From assembly GCA_902601705.1 (NCBI GenBank), contig CACKNV010000001.1, forward strand, positions 124,001 to 188,000: 64,000 nt of DNA. Reading direction: 5' to 3'. A program made the position numbers and the translations under genes. The notes under the pieces were generated by a model. The model made no database searches. It was not told the origin of the DNA and was given only the letters and a program-made list of their open reading frames with translations. This stretch comes from an uncultured Pelagibacteraceae bacterium (lineage in GTDB: Bacteria; Pseudomonadota; Alphaproteobacteria; Pelagibacterales; Pelagibacteraceae). Positions 45,484-53,000 of this stretch are shown here, in pieces (position 1 is the first letter of the stretch; every line of letters begins with the position of its first letter).

Positions 45484-45840
45484 TTATACGTATTTAAATA
45501 CAATCACAAAATATGCAACACAAATAATTGTTGCTATCCACAACATGCTACCCACTAAACCTAACCATGCCAAATGAATAAAAGCACTTCCTAATAAGGA
45601 TACAAAAAGTCTGTCTCCTCTAGTTGTATCTAATCCTAAAATTCCTTTTCTAGGACTCCCTCCTGGAGAATATTTTTCCCAAATTAACATTACTGTTATA
45701 CAAAGAGCTATGAAGATAAAAAATGAAGCTGTTTGCCAAGTCCATGCCATCCATGAAAATAAATCAAAATCAAAAAAACCTTTTTCTTTGGCTTTTCCAA
45801 CATCGCCCCAAGTGGCTGCATGTAATTTTGTAAAAATCAT
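45484..45840 (-). CDS. glpU: DUF2160 membrane protein of glycerol ABC transporter
   Basis: 118 residues with three predicted helices (about 30-52, 78-96, 98-116). It carries FDFDLFSWMAWTWQTASFF, EKYSPGGSPRKGILGLDTTRGDRLFVSLLGSAFIHL, matching the DUF2160 family found in glpSTPQUV glycerol operons of rhizobia. Function unknown; perhaps an accessory membrane subunit. Overlaps the glpQ stop by four bases (ATGA). The gene symbol is by operon analogy. Confidence 0.85.
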   Translation of the reverse strand: MIFTKLHAATWGDVGKAKEKGFFDFDLFSWMAWTWQTASFFIFIALCITVMLIWEKYSPGGSPRKGILGLDTTRGDRLFVSLLGSAFIHLAWLGLVGSMLWIATIICVAYFVIVFKYV

Positions 45841-46637
45841 ACTCGGCCCATCGCAAACCCTTTAGCAATATAATTTCTAACAAAGTAAATTACTATTGCT
45901 CCAGGAATTATTGTTAAACTTCCCGCTGCTGCAAGAAGACCTAGTTCGTATCCAGAGGTGCTCGCTGTTCTTGTCATCGTTGCTGCTATTGGTTTCGCCT
46001 CTGTTGCTGTTAAAGTTTTGGCCAATAACAACTCAACCCAAGAAAACATAAAACAGAAAAACATTGTGATACCTATTCCTGCAGCAATTGTGGGAATAAA
46101 TATTTTGAAGAAAAATCTATTAAAAGAGTAACCATCTACATAAGCTGTTTCATCTAACTCTTTTGGTACAGCTGACATGAATCCCTCTAAAATCCATACA
46201 GCTAAAGGAATGTTAAATAAGCAGTGTGAAAGAGCTACAGCTATATGAGTATCAAACAAATTAACAGATGAATAAAATTGGAAGAACGGTAAAGCAAATA
46301 CAGCCGGTGGTGCCATTCTATTTGTTAAAAGCCAGAAAAATAAATGTTTATCACCTAAAAATTTATACCTAGAAAAAGCATAAGCAGCAGGTAAAGCAGC
46401 TGCAACTGAAATAATCGTATTAAATACTGTATAGGTAATTGAATTTACATAACCCATATACCAAGTGCTATCTGTAAAGATCTTTACATAATTCTCAGTT
46501 GTAAATTCTCGTGGCCATAAAGAATAAGTATTTATAATCTCAGTCGTTGTCTTAAAGGACATGTTAATCAACCAATAAATTGGCAACATTAAAAAAATTA
46601 TATAAAGCGTTGGTACTAACCACTTATATTTCTTCAT
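45837..46637 (-). CDS. glpQ: Glycerol ABC transporter permease
   Basis: MalG-type permease, 266 residues, about six helices. Seen: IIFLMLPIYWLINMSFKTTTEI at the N terminus and the EAA coupling loop KELDETAYVDGYSFNRFFFKIFIP, ending VRNYIAKGFAMGRV as in MalG-like proteins. Overlaps glpP by four bases. Substrate assignment comes from its operon neighbours (large binding protein, two ATPases, DUF2160 and glpK). Confidence 0.9.
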   Translation of the reverse strand: MKKYKWLVPTLYIIFLMLPIYWLINMSFKTTTEIINTYSLWPREFTTENYVKIFTDSTWYMGYVNSITYTVFNTIISVAAALPAAYAFSRYKFLGDKHLFFWLLTNRMAPPAVFALPFFQFYSSVNLFDTHIAVALSHCLFNIPLAVWILEGFMSAVPKELDETAYVDGYSFNRFFFKIFIPTIAAGIGITMFFCFMFSWVELLLAKTLTATEAKPIAATMTRTASTSGYELGLLAAAGSLTIIPGAIVIYFVRNYIAKGFAMGRV

Positions 46638-47500
46638 GACCTAACCTCATTTTTCATCATTAAACTATAAAATACCCAACACACTAACAGCACTATAAAG
46701 AAATATATTAATGACATTGCAGCTGCAGGACCCAAATCAAATTGACCTAAAGCCATCTTAACTAAATCTATGGATAAAAATGCTGTTGCATTTCCTGGCC
46801 CGCCACCTGTTAACACGAATGGTTCAGTGTAAATCATAAAGCTATCCATAAATCTTAAAAGAATAGCTAACGTTAAAACTTTTTTCATTTTTGGAAGTTC
46901 AATGTATCGAAAAGTTGCCCAACGACTCGCCCCATCAATTTCAGCAGCCTGGTAATAAGCTGGTTGAATTGAATTTAATCCAGCATAAGATAAAAGCACT
47001 ACAAGTGAAGTCCAGTGCCAAACATCCATTAATATAGTGGTAAACCAAGCATCACCAGGTTGTTGAGTGAAATTGAAATCAAACCCAATAGCATTTAGAG
47101 AATAACCAAGAAAACCTATGTCAGGTAATGCAAATATATTCCACATTGCACCTACAACATTCCATGGAATTAAAAGAGGCATCGACATTAGAATTAAACA
47201 GACAGGAACACCCCAACCTTTTTTCGGCATTGTTAAAGCTATTCCAATACCAAGTGGTATTTGGATTAATAGAATTATAAATGTAAAAGCAATTTGTCTT
47301 CCTAAGGCATCGTGAAATCTCTCAGATAAAAGAATTTGTTTAAACCATCTTGTTCCCTCCCAAGCAAATACGTTGTTACCGAATGTCTCTTGGAAAGAGT
47401 AATTAACTACTGTCATTAATGGAATAGCTGCGTTAAACGCTACTAAGACAAAAACCGGAACAACAAAGAACCAAGCTTTTTGATTTATAGTTTTATTCAT
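46634..47500 (-). CDS. glpP: Glycerol ABC transporter permease
   Basis: MalF-type permease, 288 residues, about six helices. Seen: QKAWFFVVPVFVLVAFNAAIPL, coupling loop YQAAEIDGASRWATFRYIELPK, and MIYTEPFVLTGGGPGNATAFLS, common in the sugar/glycerol permease group. Its start shares one base with the glpT stop (TAATG), and it overlaps glpQ by four bases. Confidence 0.9.
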   Translation of the reverse strand: MNKTINQKAWFFVVPVFVLVAFNAAIPLMTVVNYSFQETFGNNVFAWEGTRWFKQILLSERFHDALGRQIAFTFIILLIQIPLGIGIALTMPKKGWGVPVCLILMSMPLLIPWNVVGAMWNIFALPDIGFLGYSLNAIGFDFNFTQQPGDAWFTTILMDVWHWTSLVVLLSYAGLNSIQPAYYQAAEIDGASRWATFRYIELPKMKKVLTLAILLRFMDSFMIYTEPFVLTGGGPGNATAFLSIDLVKMALGQFDLGPAAAMSLIYFFIVLLVCWVFYSLMMKNEVRS

Positions 47501-48561
47501 TATTCAATTATCCAGTTATCTCCATAAACGTAAGTATATTTTTGATTAAAGTTAATATGTGCACTTCCGCTTGGAATTTCTGTAGAAGCATTAGATAAAA
47601 CTTTGATTGTCCCCCCGGTACACTCTGTGTCAATTATTTTGTGTCTTCCAGTATTGCTAACTCTTTTTATTTTCACAGGAATGCCTTTGTCAGAAAAATT
47701 AATAAATTCTGGCCTTATTCCTAATTGTGTTTTTTGAAAATTATTTTTTTTAATATTTGAATTGCTTTGTATTTCTTGACCTGCAAAATTTATTTGTCCG
47801 TTTTTTATTTGGCAAGGTAAAATGTTCATTCCTGGAGATCCAATAAAGTGACCAACAAAAGTATGTTTTGGTTTTTCAAATAATTCTACAGGAGTTCCAG
47901 TTTGAACTATTTGCCCTTCGTGCATAACCACTACCTGATCTGCAAAAGTTAAGGCTTCCGTTTGATCATGTGTAACGTAAATCATTGTTCGGTTTATTTT
48001 TTGATGCAATTCTTTTAATTTAGATCTTAAAATCCATTTTAGATGTGGGTCAATCACAGTTAAAGGTTCATCAAACATAATTACATTAACGTCAGATCTG
48101 ACTAATCCTCTTCCCAACGAAATTTTTTGTTTACCATCAGCTGTCAAACCAGAGGCTCTATTATTTAAGGTTGATGTTAATTCTAACATTTCTGCTATTT
48201 CTCTAACTTTAGAGTCAATTTCTGTATCAGAAAGACTTCTATTTTTTAAAGGAAAAGCTAAATTGTCATAAACTGACATCGTGTCATAGATGACAGGAAA
48301 TTGAAATATTTGGGCTATATCTCTTTCAACAGGATTTAAAGATGTAACGTTTTTATCATCAAATAAAATATCTCCTTTAGACGGTTTTATTAATCCAGAA
48401 ATAATATTTAATAGTGTTGTCTTTCCACATCCTGAAGGACCTAATAATGCGTAAGCTCCTCCATCTTTCCAATCAATGTTTACATCTCTCAATACTAAAT
48501 CTGCATCAGTATAATTAGAAACGTAACTGTGGCTTAAATTATTTAGTGTTATTTTAGCCAT
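47500..48561 (-). CDS. glpT: Glycerol ABC transporter ATPase with degenerate signature
   Basis: 353 residues. Intact: Walker A GPSGCGKTT at 41-49, Q-loop IAQIFQFPVIYDTMSVYDN, Walker B IMFDEPL at 161-167, and H-loop YVTHDQTEAL with His198. The ABC signature is replaced by ASGLTADGKQKISLGR (136-151), lacking LSGGQ. A TOBE-like domain follows (LGIRPEFINFS). It would supply the nucleotide-binding half of a composite site whose signature comes from GlpS. Overlaps the glpS stop by 8 bases. Confidence 0.9.
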   Translation of the reverse strand: MAKITLNNLSHSYVSNYTDADLVLRDVNIDWKDGGAYALLGPSGCGKTTLLNIISGLIKPSKGDILFDDKNVTSLNPVERDIAQIFQFPVIYDTMSVYDNLAFPLKNRSLSDTEIDSKVREIAEMLELTSTLNNRASGLTADGKQKISLGRGLVRSDVNVIMFDEPLTVIDPHLKWILRSKLKELHQKINRTMIYVTHDQTEALTFADQVVVMHEGQIVQTGTPVELFEKPKHTFVGHFIGSPGMNILPCQIKNGQINFAGQEIQSNSNIKKNNFQKTQLGIRPEFINFSDKGIPVKIKRVSNTGRHKIIDTECTGGTIKVLSNASTEIPSGSAHINFNQKYTYVYGDNWIIE

Positions 48562-49618
48562 GATTTACTAGTCTATTGTTTTCATCAAAATATAAAAATT
48601 CATCTACGTTCATAAATAATTTTGTATTTTCACCAATATTTTTTTGCTGTATTCCATTAGATAAAGACACCCAATTTAAGTTACCATTAGTAAAATGTAT
48701 TAAACTTTCTGAGCCACTAAGCTCAGAAATTAAAACTTTTCCATTAATTTCAACCGTATTATTTCCCTCTTTGTAAGTTGTTATATTATGAGGTCTAATT
48801 CCTATTTTATAATTACCATCTTTAATTTTAACATTTGATTTCCACTGAACACTGTTATCAGTTAATTTGCAGGTATCTCCACTTTTAGAAATTTCTGCAA
48901 TATTCATTGGTGGATCACTGAATACTTTCGCTGAAGTTAAATTTTCAGGTTTATTATAAACATCTAAAGTCTTTCCATATTGAATAATTTTTCCTTCTAG
49001 AATAGTAGCTGTATTTCCACCAATCATAAGAGCATCAGATGGTTCTGTTGTTGCATAAACAACAATACATTCTCTGTCCTCAAATAATTTCGGAAGTTCT
49101 TCTCTTAGTTCTTCTCGAAGTTTAAAATCTAAATTTGCTAAAGGCTCATCTAATAAAATTAAATCTGAGTCTTTTACTAATGCTCTTGCTAAAGCTGTTC
49201 TTTGTTGCTGTCCTCCAGATAATTCGTCAGGTTTTTTATTTAGCATTGCAGATAATTTTAATAATTCTGCAACCTTTCCAACTCTTTCTTTTATTTCATC
49301 TGAATTAACGCCGATTATTTTTAAAGGCGATGCTATATTTTCAAATACTGTAAAACTTGGGTAATTAATAAATTGTTGATAAACCATAGATACATTTCTT
49401 TTTTGAACTTGTTTACCAGTAACATTTTCTCCATTAAACCAGATTTCACCTGAGGTTGGTTTGTCCAAGCCTGCCATGATTTGCATTAAAGTTGTTTTTC
49501 CAGCTAAAGTTGATCCAAGGAGGACATTAATGGTATTTTTTTCTAATTTAATATTTGTAGGATAAATATGAGTTTCTATTCCAACTTTTTTTTCTACGTT
49601 TTTTAATTCTAGGCTCAT
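48554..49618 (-). CDS. glpS: Glycerol ABC transporter ATPase lacking switch histidine
   Basis: Start set at ATG 49618 (MSLELKNVEKKVG); the longer frame runs into the preceding terminator. 354 residues. Seen: Walker A GSTLAGKTT at 35-43, Q-loop MVYQQFINYPSFTVFEN, canonical [15 protein letters not shown] at 133-147, Walker B LILLDEPLANLD at 153-164. The H-loop reads VYATTEPSDAL, with Thr191 where His is expected. C-terminal TOBE-like domain (IGIRPHNITTY). Partner of GlpT; the two proteins have complementary defects. Confidence 0.9.
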   Translation of the reverse strand: MSLELKNVEKKVGIETHIYPTNIKLEKNTINVLLGSTLAGKTTLMQIMAGLDKPTSGEIWFNGENVTGKQVQKRNVSMVYQQFINYPSFTVFENIASPLKIIGVNSDEIKERVGKVAELLKLSAMLNKKPDELSGGQQQRTALARALVKDSDLILLDEPLANLDFKLREELREELPKLFEDRECIVVYATTEPSDALMIGGNTATILEGKIIQYGKTLDVYNKPENLTSAKVFSDPPMNIAEISKSGDTCKLTDNSVQWKSNVKIKDGNYKIGIRPHNITTYKEGNNTVEINGKVLISELSGSESLIHFTNGNLNWVSLSNGIQQKNIGENTKLFMNVDEFLYFDENNRLVNHG

Positions 49619-49686: not shown

Positions 49687-51417
49687 CTATTTCCAAGCTC
49701 TCGCGTATGGAACAGTTTTTCCTTGAGGTTTCTCATTACGTTTAGCTTTTGGTGAACCTTTTTTATTTAACCAATAAGAAGCTTCTCTTGGTTTATTAAG
49801 TCTAGGTCCACATCCACCGTATGCGTTACTACCTTTATCAGCAGCTTCCATACGAGACATTACTAAGTCCATCTCTTCTGCAAGACGATCCATAGCTTGT
49901 TGTGGAGTAAACGCACCTGAGTTTACATCTCCAATTTGTTGCCACCAGATTTGTGCTAACTTCGGATAATCCGGAACGTTAATACCTGTTGGTGACCAAA
50001 TATTTCTATTGTCAGATCTGTAGAATTCTACAAGTCCACCTAATGCATCAGCTCTTTCTGTGAAAGATTTGTGATCGATTGAACTATCTCTAATGATAGT
50101 TAAACCAACGTGACTTTTCTTTAGGTCTACAGTTTTTGATACAACGAATTGAGCGTACAACCATGCAGCTTTTCTATTTTTAACTGGTGTAGACTTAAAT
50201 AAAGTCCATGATCCAGCATCTTGATATCCAAGCTTCATGCCTTCTTCCCAATAAGGTCCTTTTGGTGATGGACCCATTCTCCATAACGGCTTACCGTTAG
50301 AGTCAACAACTTTATTGTTAGGATTTTTTCCTACTAAAGATGCTGTGAACGCAGTGTACCAGAAAATTTGCTGAGCAACGTTTCCAGAAGATAGAGACGG
50401 TAAAGACTGATAAAAGTCCATTGCCGCTGCACCTGGAGGCGCATAGTTTCTTAACCACTCATCCCATTTTCTAATTGCGTATACTGCAGCTGGACCGTTA
50501 GCAGCTCCACCTCTTGTTACAGAAGCTCCTACAGGGTTACAAGAACCTTTTTCCATTCTTATTCCCCATTCGTCTACTGGTATACCATTAGGTTTTCCAA
50601 CATCACCTGCTCCAGCCATTGATAACCACGCATCAGTCATTCTCCATCCTAAGTCAGGAGCTCTCTTACCGTAGTCCATGTGACCGTATATTCTTACACC
50701 GTCAATATTTTTTACATCATTTGTAAAATACTTTGCGATGTCTTCATAAGCAGACCAGTTTAAAGGAACACCTAACTCGTATCCGTATTTCGCTTTAAAT
50801 CCTTTTTTAATTTCAGGTCTATCAAACCAATCTTTTCTAAACCAATAAAGGTTAGCAAATTGTTGGTCAGGTAATTGATATAAGTCTCCATCTGGTCCAG
50901 TTGTGAACTGTTTACCGATGAAATCATTTATATCTAAAGTTGGTAAAGTTACATCTTTACCTTCTCCAGCCATCCATTTTGTTAAATTAACTGCTTGTTG
51001 CATTCTAGCGTGAGTACCAATCAAATCAGAGTCATTGATGTACGCATCGTAAATACTAACGTTAGTTTGCATTTGTGTTTGCACAGCCATTACAACATCA
51101 CCTTCACCGAGTAACTGGTGATTTACTTTAATCCCAGTGATTTCTTCAAAAGCTTTTGTTAAAACTTTTGACTCATACTCGTGCGTTGGAATAGTTTCAG
51201 ACAATACTTTAATAGACATTCCTTTGAATGGCTTTGCAGCATTGTGGAACCACTCTAGTTCTTTCTCTCTCTCTTTTGCAGATAAAGTTGAAAGACTAAA
51301 TTCTCCATTAGACCATTTCTTGATTGCAGCCATATGACCGTCTGCAAAAGCACTAGAAATAGTTACGATTGAAAATGACACAGCAACAGCTAAGAAAGTT
51401 TTTAATGTTTTAAACAT
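49687..51417 (-). CDS. glpV: Glycerol ABC transporter substrate-binding protein
   Basis: Periplasmic receptor, 576 residues, the large size typical of GlpV-type proteins. Start set at ATG 51417 (MFKTLKTFLAVAVSF), with GGGGGA upstream; the longer frame adds 19 codons before the signal peptide. Signal peptide likely cleaved after SSAFA. Seen: KWSNGEFSLSTLSAKEREKELEWF near the N terminus and VPYARAWK at the end, features I associate with the glycerol group. First gene of the operon, separated from glpS by a strong terminator and from glpK by about 100 bases that hold its own leader. Confidence 0.88.
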   Translation of the reverse strand: MFKTLKTFLAVAVSFSIVTISSAFADGHMAAIKKWSNGEFSLSTLSAKEREKELEWFHNAAKPFKGMSIKVLSETIPTHEYESKVLTKAFEEITGIKVNHQLLGEGDVVMAVQTQMQTNVSIYDAYINDSDLIGTHARMQQAVNLTKWMAGEGKDVTLPTLDINDFIGKQFTTGPDGDLYQLPDQQFANLYWFRKDWFDRPEIKKGFKAKYGYELGVPLNWSAYEDIAKYFTNDVKNIDGVRIYGHMDYGKRAPDLGWRMTDAWLSMAGAGDVGKPNGIPVDEWGIRMEKGSCNPVGASVTRGGAANGPAAVYAIRKWDEWLRNYAPPGAAAMDFYQSLPSLSSGNVAQQIFWYTAFTASLVGKNPNNKVVDSNGKPLWRMGPSPKGPYWEEGMKLGYQDAGSWTLFKSTPVKNRKAAWLYAQFVVSKTVDLKKSHVGLTIIRDSSIDHKSFTERADALGGLVEFYRSDNRNIWSPTGINVPDYPKLAQIWWQQIGDVNSGAFTPQQAMDRLAEEMDLVMSRMEAADKGSNAYGGCGPRLNKPREASYWLNKKGSPKAKRNEKPQGKTVPYARAWK

Positions 51418-51518
51418 TGTTATTTCCCCCATTGTTGTTTTTAATGATGCATTATTGAACCAAAAATAACCCAAAGTGTACAGCCCTTTATTAGTTAATT
51501 ATGCAACTATAAAGTGTG

Positions 51519-53000
51519 TTAATTGCTTAAAGTTTTTTTGATTGCTGCTGACCAGCCTTTTAAAAGTTTATTTCTTGAAGGATTTTTCATTTTCGGTGAG
51601 AACTTTTTATCTAGATGCCAATTTTTAGAAATATCTTTTAAAGACTTGTAAACTCCAATTTGTAAACCTGCCATAAAAGCTGCGCCGAGAGCTGTAGTTT
51701 CTTGAACTTTAGGTCTAAGAACTTTTACATTTACTATGTCAGATAAAAATTGTGAAAACCAATTATTCATTACCATTCCACCGTCAACTTTTACAATTTT
51801 AGGTCTTAAACCATCGTGTTTCATAGCTTCAAATAAATCATAAGTTTGATAAGCAACAGCTTCTATTGTAGCTCTTACTATTTCCTTCGGACTTGTATCT
51901 CTAGTAATTCCACTTAGAACTCCTCTAGCGTTTGCATCCCAGTAAGGAGCTCCCAGTCCTGTAAAAGCTGGAACAAGATAAATATTATTGTTATCTTTTA
52001 AAGATTTCACAATTTTTTCTGTCTCTGGTGCTTTCTTAAAAAATTTCATTCTATCTCTGAGCCATTGGACACCTGCACCTGCTATAAAAATTGATCCTTC
52101 CATGGCATATGTTGTCTTGCCGTTAATTCTATATGCAATTGTTGTTAACAGTCTATTTTTTGAATAAATCTTTTTGCTACCTGTATTAAGTAAAACAAAT
52201 GCTCCAGTGCCATATGTGCTTTTTAGAGAGCCTGGTTCAAAACAACATTGGCCAATAGTAGCTGATTGCTGATCTCCTACTACTCCGTTAATTGGTATAG
52301 ACTTGCCTGTAATCGATGAATGAGTTTGACCGTAATCATCAGCACAATCTTTTACTTCAGGAAGAATATGTTTTTTGATCTTTAATAAATTTAAAATCGT
52401 ATCATCCCATTTATTTGAACTAATATTATAAATCATTGTTCGACTAGCATTTGAAGCATCAGTAGCGTGTATTTTTCCTCGAGTTAATCTCCAAATTAAA
52501 AAACTATCGATGGTTCCAAACAATAATTGTTTTTTGTTCATTAGTTGTTTAGCTTTAGAAACATTATCAAGTATCCATTTAATTTTTGTTCCTGAAAAGT
52601 AAGAGTCAATTAAAAGACCTGTTTTGTTAAAGATCATTGTATCTTTATTTTGTTTTCTTAATTTTTTGCAAAACTCTTCTTGTCTACGATCTTGCCAGAC
52701 TATTGCATTGTAAACTGGCTTACCTGTTTTTTTGTCCCACAAAACAGTAGTTTCTCTTTGATTGGTTATACCTATACTTAAAATTTCACCTCTTAGTTTT
52801 TTTGTTTTTTGAATAACATCTTTTAAAGTTTTTAAAGTTGTTCTCCAAATTTCTTCTGGATTATGTTCAACCCACCCACTTTTTGGAAAGTACTGTGTAA
52901 ATTCTTTTTGTGACGAATAAACTGGCTTTCCTTTTAAATCAAAAAGTATCGATCTGTTCGATGTAGTCCCAGCATCAATCGAGATAATAAATTTCTTCAC
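51519..53000 (-). CDS. glpK: Glycerol kinase
   Basis: FGGY-family kinase making sn-glycerol-3-phosphate from glycerol and ATP. 493 residues. Seen: SIDAGTTSNRSILFD at the N terminus, GITNQRETTVLWDKKTGKPV with the glycerol-binding Arg-Glu, IVWQDRRQEEFC, GVVGDQQSATIGQ, STYGTGAFVLLNTG and FTGLGAPYWDANARGVL. Overlaps the gpsA stop by four bases (ATGA) and precedes the transporter operon, so uptake and phosphorylation are adjacent. Confidence 0.96.
   Translation of the reverse strand: MKKFIISIDAGTTSNRSILFDLKGKPVYSSQKEFTQYFPKSGWVEHNPEEIWRTTLKTLKDVIQKTKKLRGEILSIGITNQRETTVLWDKKTGKPVYNAIVWQDRRQEEFCKKLRKQNKDTMIFNKTGLLIDSYFSGTKIKWILDNVSKAKQLMNKKQLLFGTIDSFLIWRLTRGKIHATDASNASRTMIYNISSNKWDDTILNLLKIKKHILPEVKDCADDYGQTHSSITGKSIPINGVVGDQQSATIGQCCFEPGSLKSTYGTGAFVLLNTGSKKIYSKNRLLTTIAYRINGKTTYAMEGSIFIAGAGVQWLRDRMKFFKKAPETEKIVKSLKDNNNIYLVPAFTGLGAPYWDANARGVLSGITRDTSPKEIVRATIEAVAYQTYDLFEAMKHDGLRPKIVKVDGGMVMNNWFSQFLSDIVNVKVLRPKVQETTALGAAFMAGLQIGVYKSLKDISKNWHLDKKFSPKMKNPSRNKLLKGWSAAIKKTLSN

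Follow-up and report, generated by a model that had tools for sequence, protein, structure and literature searches.

A stretch of 64,000 nucleotides from an uncultured Pelagibacteraceae bacterium (the window) carries on its minus strand a glpSTPQUV operon, predicted to encode a glycerol importer of the ATP-binding cassette (ABC) class. All six parts of the operon are present: two ATPases, two permeases, a DUF2160 protein and a binding protein. The two ATPases, GlpS and GlpT, are of the MalK type, whose members usually act as homodimers with two canonical sites, and their reading frames overlap by 8 bp. Gene names are taken from PMC7912956 and from an annotation made earlier from the sequence alone (the original prediction). 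If GlpS and GlpT pair head-to-tail they would form two composite sites, here called site A (nucleotide side of GlpT, signature of GlpS) and site B (nucleotide side of GlpS, signature position of GlpT). The two genes and their motifs are as follows.

48554..49618, minus strand: glpS, MalK-type ATPase of 354 aa from the ATG at 49618 (open reading frame (ORF); ABC ATPase family and PDB relatives)
49583..49585, minus strand: GlpS Val12 at the A-loop position (codon 12 from the start at 49618; VEKKVG, residues 8-13, at 49580-49597)
49493..49516, minus strand: GlpS Walker A GSTLAGKT, residues 35-42, Lys retained
49199..49225, minus strand: GlpS signature ELSGGQQQR, canonical (LSGGQ, residues 133-137), which would serve site A
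49127..49156, minus strand: GlpS Walker B, catalytic Glu158 and D-loop, LLDEPLANLD, residues 155-164
49046..49048, minus strand: GlpS Thr191 (YATTEP) at the switch-His position, a putative site B lesion
47500..48561, minus strand: glpT, MalK-type ATPase of 353 aa with an intact nucleotide side and no LSGGQ (ORF, fold search)
48418..48441, minus strand: GlpT Walker A GPSGCGKT, residues 41-48, putative site A
48124..48159, minus strand: GlpT RASGLTADGKQK, residues 135-146, in place of LSGGQ, with Asp142 at the second Gly, a putative site B lesion
48049..48078, minus strand: GlpT Walker B, catalytic Glu165 and TVID D-loop, MFDEPLTVID, residues 162-171
47968..47970, minus strand: GlpT switch His198, putative site A

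The translated window bears out the residue-level claims of the original prediction: GlpT has Walker A, Walker B and His198 and lacks LSGGQ, reading LTADGKQK in its place, and GlpS has LSGGQQQR together with Thr191 at the position of the switch His. Two further changes had not been noted there, the absence of the A-loop aromatic residue from GlpS and the substitution of Asp for the second signature Gly in GlpT. In single-chain predicted models of the two proteins (mean predicted local distance difference test score 89.3 for GlpT and 93.2 for GlpS) the helix that follows the signature starts at the third motif residue, A141 in GlpT and G135 in GlpS, so that GlpT Asp142 occupies the place of GlpS Gly136; the odd GlpT signature also keeps its register in the multiple alignment of homologs. 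We take the position of Asp142 to be that of the G551D substitution in CFTR. The fold of the GlpT model is common to MalK of MalFGK2 and other CUT1 ATPases, its closest PDB relatives being the MalK-type ATPases 2it1, MalK, MsmX and AlgS (template modelling scores by query 0.83-0.90), and a MalK fold with C-terminal OB domains is indicated by an OB_MalK Pfam match in GlpT. There is no OB_MalK Pfam match in GlpS, residues 3-348 of which still align with the solved MalK-type ATPase 1v43.

Conservation of the asymmetry among glp loci

Comparison of glp loci confirms that the asymmetry between GlpS and GlpT is real and is fixed in a widespread importer. A first survey, anchored on DUF2160, covered 398 genomes of the window's phylum (Pseudomonadota), 85 of which have a PF09928 match. 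All 85 strong, full-length DUF2160 places, the window included, lie in operons of the same six genes with both ATPases. GlpS reads LSGGQQQR in 85/85 and has Thr (80) or Ser (5) at the switch position; LSGGQ is present in none of the 85 GlpT proteins and the switch His in all of them. The second survey was anchored on GlpV and took the best 80 of 595 matches, a sample skewed to the window's relatives: 19 of the 80 loci (L121-L139) are titled Pelagibacteraceae or Pelagibacterales, and one (L141) carries the title SAR324 cluster. GlpS is present in 77 of these best 80 loci and GlpT was counted as complete in 73. It is absent or cut by a contig end in L126, L131, L181 and L192, and the contig ends before both genes in L136, L169 and L188; in L165 GlpT is split over two reading frames, and the count includes just its larger part. 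Both ATPases are found in 160 of the 165 loci of the two surveys (including L131 and L181, where GlpT is cut at the contig end), and the remaining five are all cut at contig ends.

With the cluster of Rhizobium johnstonii 3841 plasmid pRL9 (L201) included, the totals are 163 GlpS (162 distinct) and 159 GlpT (158 distinct). LSGGQQQR is present in 163/163 GlpS, and the switch position is Thr in 122 and Ser in 41, never His; the A-loop aromatic residue is kept in two of the 163, in both cases as Phe. The Walker A Lys, Walker B Asp and catalytic Glu are retained in all 162 distinct GlpS sequences. Among the 159 GlpT proteins LSGGQ is never found, and the switch His, the A-loop Tyr, FQFP and DEPLTVID (with its TVID D-loop) are each invariant. 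Asp stands at the second signature Gly in 158 of these, the lone departure being L083, which reads LGAAD with the Asp shifted one place later. The replacement motif is itself conserved (Lys 158, Gln 158 and Asp 157 of 158 distinct sequences, with Thr (110) or Ser (39) at signature position 2 in 149), which argues for selection and not for drift or decay. The cut GlpT genes of L131 and L181 also read GLTADGKQK, and the fragment in L192 stops short of the motif.

Both losses are thus fixed in every sampled homolog, which upholds the view of the original prediction that they are a shared family trait and not a local mutation. Homologs that would contradict it were sought at the signature and H-loop columns, and no GlpT with LSGGQ (0/159) and no GlpS with His (0/163) was seen in the sampled loci. 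Since neither chain combines LSGGQ with a switch His, GlpS and GlpT are filed as a divergent MalK/CUT1 branch and not as ordinary MalK.

Forty-three distinct MalK-type ATPases from outside glp operons and outside tandem pairs served as controls. All 43 have the switch His, which GlpS lacks, and all have the catalytic Glu and an A-loop aromatic residue (Tyr 24, Phe 17, Trp 2); the signature is LSGG in 42 and MSGG in one. The control set is biased to canonical ATPases. Twenty-four of the controls come from 23 listed UgpC-type best-hit loci, nine come from regions hand-picked from the same list (18, less six chosen for tandem pairs, one found to be tandem and two repeats), and ten come from the window or from fetched glp or DUF2160 loci; that a control has no second ATPase was judged within the fetched stretch. 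The asymmetry is more than chance, because the losses are fixed in all sampled homologs and absent from 43/43 controls.

A putative importer with one catalytic site

A one-site mechanism is well supported by these sequences, and we consider it probable that GlpS and GlpT form an obligate heterodimer, serving one glycerol importer, in which a single site is catalytic. In this scenario GlpS and GlpT, two different ATPase subunits of a MalK/CUT1-type GlpSTPQUV transporter, would pair head-to-tail. Site A, built from the A-loop, Walker A, Q-loop, Walker B, Glu and switch His of GlpT and closed by the LSGGQ of GlpS, would be canonical and would hydrolyse ATP. At site B the nucleotide side of GlpS, which is without the A-loop aromatic residue and the switch His, would lie opposite the LTADxKQK of GlpT; this site would at best bind and retain ATP weakly and would act as a non-hydrolytic hinge, and one ATP would be spent per transport cycle. 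We infer pairing, site competence and stoichiometry, the first of these from the co-occurrence of the two genes.

If GlpS and GlpT do pair, the three losses (GlpS A-loop, GlpS His and GlpT signature) all map to site B, and the elements of site A are invariant or conservatively varied across the sampled family. The original prediction of a heterodimer with one canonical and one degenerate site thus keeps its site assignment provided that pairing is head-to-tail, and the third lesion falls on the same site. By sequence, the losses of both chains would gather at a single composite site and leave its counterpart complete, as in transporters of the degenerate-site class. The R. johnstonii 3841 cluster, organized as glpR-glpD-STPQUV-glpK, has the same GlpS and GlpT lesions as the window and resembles the glycerol cluster of R. 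leguminosarum VF39, so the lesions appear compatible with transport.

Covariation was computed over the 158 distinct GlpS/GlpT pairs (effective number 90). GlpT141 ranks with GlpS82 (Q-loop) at the 99.99 percentile, with GlpS38 (Walker A) at 99.96 and with GlpS191 (the switch place) at 99.85. When changes are placed on a tree built without the motif columns, changes at GlpS82 and GlpT141 coincide on two branches (0.05 expected), of which one is L165, with its GlpT in two frames, and those at GlpS38 and GlpT143 likewise on two (0.33 expected). This covariation lends weak support to the two motif sets facing each other; as proof that the positions face each other it was rejected, since most of it comes from one branch. 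On that branch, which leads to 30 loci, GlpS 38, 82 and 191 and GlpT 141 and 143 change jointly, which would fit a single remodelling of the degenerate site.

Several points weigh against a single catalytic site. Three lesions placed at random would fall in one of the two sites with a chance of 1 in 4 by our own arithmetic, so placement alone is a weak argument and it is the invariance that bears the weight. Unlike exporters in which the degenerate site loses its Glu, GlpS still has this residue as well as the P-loop Lys and Walker B Asp, so site B may still bind nucleotide, and it could bind ATP or turn over slowly. A hydroxyl is kept by the Thr or Ser at the His place of GlpS and by the Thr or Ser at the signature Ser place of GlpT (149/158 distinct), and a neighbouring GlpS residue could substitute for the A-loop aromatic. 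As to covariation, its origin lies mostly in the one branch to 30 loci, and the top-ranked pair overall, GlpS161-GlpT185, lies outside these motifs. Between the GlpS A-loop and the GlpT signature the signal is inconsistent (percentiles 0.8 to 96), and for GlpS191-GlpT140, GlpS39-GlpT140 and GlpS80 with any position the shared branches are not above expectation.

An alternative that we regard as unlikely is that both sites hydrolyse ATP, the His-to-Thr and signature changes being tolerated and the asymmetry cosmetic. The intact Lys, Asp and Glu of GlpS and the retained hydroxyl in GlpT would fit this, and loss of the switch His does not end turnover in every ABC protein, but three elements of one site have changed together, no reversion to LSGGQ or His occurs in 158 distinct pairs, and the 43 controls keep both the His and the aromatic residue. 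A further objection is the near fixation of Asp in GlpT at what is presumably the position of CFTR G551D. That substitution is described as leaving surface expression normal while severely impairing gating (PMC3434365).

It is highly improbable that GlpS and GlpT act as separate homodimers, or that one of them is regulatory, such that no mixed composite sites form. Homodimers are the usual state of MalK-type ATPases, but the two genes are side by side in all uncut loci, with GlpS lacking a GlpT partner only at a contig end (L126, and L192 with a piece of GlpT). In a GlpT homodimer the signature would be missing from both sites, and in a GlpS homodimer the His, so that neither would be canonical by itself. 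Local mutation, pseudogene formation or misalignment of the signature has virtually no standing, being ruled out by the intact ORFs, by the same state in 163 GlpS and 159 GlpT, and by the register given by the multiple alignment and the helix starts of the two models.

The need for two hydrolysing sites and the ATP cost per substrate are old questions for ABC importers, and the GlpS/GlpT pair (GlpST) would be a naturally occurring MalK-type example in which evolution has seemingly taken one site out of service by defined changes. GlpT is nearly fixed for Asp at the presumed CFTR G551D position, here on the degenerate side. If the one-site mechanism is true, a one-ATP pump would spare energy in oligotrophic SAR11 cells. 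The glp operon has been deleted and studied in Cupriavidus (PMC7912956), so the effects of single-site mutants could be directly readable there; Cupriavidus metallidurans CH34 lacking this transporter can still grow on glycerol (PMC7912956).

Relationship to other ABC transporters

The pairing of one canonical with one degenerate site proposed for GlpST is seen in the heterodimeric exporters TM287/288, BmrCD and TAP and in the full-length exporter Pdr5. In Pdr5 both the H-loop His and the signature are replaced at the degenerate site, as predicted for GlpST, and converting all four motifs of that site to the canonical form brought no gain, or a loss, of activity (PMC7756269). The same source gives a differing pattern for ABCG5/G8, naming changes in the signature sequence, and records that transport by ABCC1 is little affected when the His of its degenerate site is altered. 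A hallmark of the exporter degenerate site is said to be the loss of its catalytic Glu (PMC7544095), whereas Glu is present in 162/162 distinct GlpS.

The original prediction treated such asymmetry as well known in exporters and as not known to be described for importers of this group. For MalK-type (CUT1) transporters this stands as far as the open-access literature searched is concerned, in which no account of site asymmetry in GlpS/GlpT or in a MalK-type importer was found among the papers listed, which is not proof of absence. However, RbsA and NupO (Bacillus subtilis), importers with fused ATPases, already have one site that is degenerate in sequence (PMC11466899), so a claim that the asymmetry is known only from exporters would be too strong. 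RbsA and NupO have their ATPase domains fused and lack the Lys of the second Walker A, whereas GlpS and GlpT are encoded by separate genes, keep the Lys and carry their lesions in the A-loop, switch His and signature; neither defining feature of the RbsA/NupO type is present in GlpS or GlpT. Importers with one degenerate site are thus already known, and GlpST is a further variant that, as far as found, is apparently undescribed for the MalK type. The importer DppBCDF likewise has two different ATPases, DppD and DppF, but both are described as having functional ATP motifs (PMC12136057), in contrast to the complementary losses of GlpS and GlpT.

Other tandem pairs of MalK-type ATPases offer a further comparison. 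In one family (L262, 6/385 genomes of the class, and Pararhizobium qamdonense p3, L282) the signature LSGGQ is replaced by LSVN[EI]LQ in the first ATPase (8/8) and reads LSGGERQR in the second (8/8), with His kept in all; the genome search admitted expectation values up to 1e-90 and scored five candidates per genome. The second ATPase reads DDP for DEP, an exporter-type loss, in two of the eight (L262 and L282) and DEP in six, and in L262 and L282 the signature and DDP changes fall on one site. These tandem importers would appear to share the design of GlpST with different lesions. In four other tandem pairs (L260, L261, L263 and L268) the first ATPase has the milder change LAGG or LSSG (4/4), and in L258 and L259 both ATPases have LSGG. 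Overall, the tandem pairs outside glp operons (L258-L263, L268 and L276-L282) fall into at least three kinds, which differ by degrees in how far the signature has changed. In P. qamdonense the neighbours of the LSVN pair are sugar-modifying genes and LacI regulators.

Because their motifs differ, the GlpT and LSVN changes may have arisen twice. GlpT and the LSVN ATPase stand apart in a FastTree phylogeny and in a quick mixture-model tree, built without the signature, H-loop and A-loop columns, but an approximately unbiased (AU) test did not reject the two as one clade (p 0.385). GlpS and GlpT, as a possible duplication pair, are grouped by a branch of the quick tree that has a support of only 2; an LSVN ATPase grouped with its own partner was likewise not rejected by the AU test (p 0.425). 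A speculative extension, which we hold to be doubtful, is that LTADxKQK is a replacement part and not a degraded signature, in which the nearly invariant Asp sits at the gamma-phosphate clasp and pairs with the invariant P-loop Lys of GlpS, that site B is a nucleotide-independent or permanently loaded latch with one ATP used per glycerol, and that the LSVN[EI]LQ family represents a second, possibly independent, arrival at one-site MalK-type importers.

Genomic setting of the glp operon

The remaining genes of the operon and those upstream of it are as follows.

46634..47500, minus strand: glpP, permease (PF00528)
45837..46637, minus strand: glpQ, permease (PF00528)
45484..45840, minus strand: glpU, small membrane protein DUF2160 (PF09928), the operon marker in the survey
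49687..51474, minus strand: glpV, periplasmic binding protein (PF01547), ORF from TTG 51474 with an alternative start at 51417
51519..53000, minus strand: glpK, glycerol kinase, above the curated cut-off of TIGR01311
52997..54043, upstream of the glp operon and beside glpK: GpsA-type glycerol-3-phosphate dehydrogenase (PF07479)

The order on the minus strand is glpV-glpS-glpT-glpP-glpQ-glpU, with glpK and the GpsA-type dehydrogenase gene upstream. Glycerol import is predicted from gene context, the adjoining glpK supporting glycerol as the substrate. In R. leguminosarum VF39 glpSTPQUV is accompanied by glpR, glpD and glpK and is associated with glycerol use in the account given by PMC7912956, which cites Ding et al. 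2012, a paper that by its title reports an ABC transporter to be required for glycerol utilization. The six genes are common to that cluster and the window; the lesions were read in the matching R. johnstonii 3841 cluster. The window differs from the R. leguminosarum and 3841 clusters in having glpV first in the operon and in that a search of its genome showed no GlpD C-terminal domain. Gene order varies more broadly: the operon opens with glpV (V S T P Q U) in the window, L051, L059, L065 and L080, and ends with it (S T P Q U V) at many other loci, including L032 and Rhizobium (L201).

The source genome (G000) is 1.08 Mb, and its nearest named relatives bear the title Pelagibacteraceae (SAR11), their binding protein being 87-99% identical (L121-L131); the glpV product has 20 relatives at 56-77% identity. 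The GpsA-type enzyme beside glpK is the sole PF07479 match in the source genome, and the GlpD C-terminal domain (PF16901) was not found in this genome, which is 94.85% complete. The cell may rely on the GpsA-type nicotinamide adenine dinucleotide (NAD) enzyme alone to oxidise glycerol 3-phosphate.

Within the SAR11 family the transporter marker is patchy, DUF2160 being present in 17 of 60 genomes, many of which are incomplete; in the window's own genus it is found in seven of eight genomes, the window included. Among the other DUF2160 matches, we note that six partial ones (L085-L090), in six of the 85 genomes, adjoin MalK-type importers with one canonical ATPase, and that, of all fetched non-glp loci, these have the permeases with the best scores against GlpP and GlpQ.

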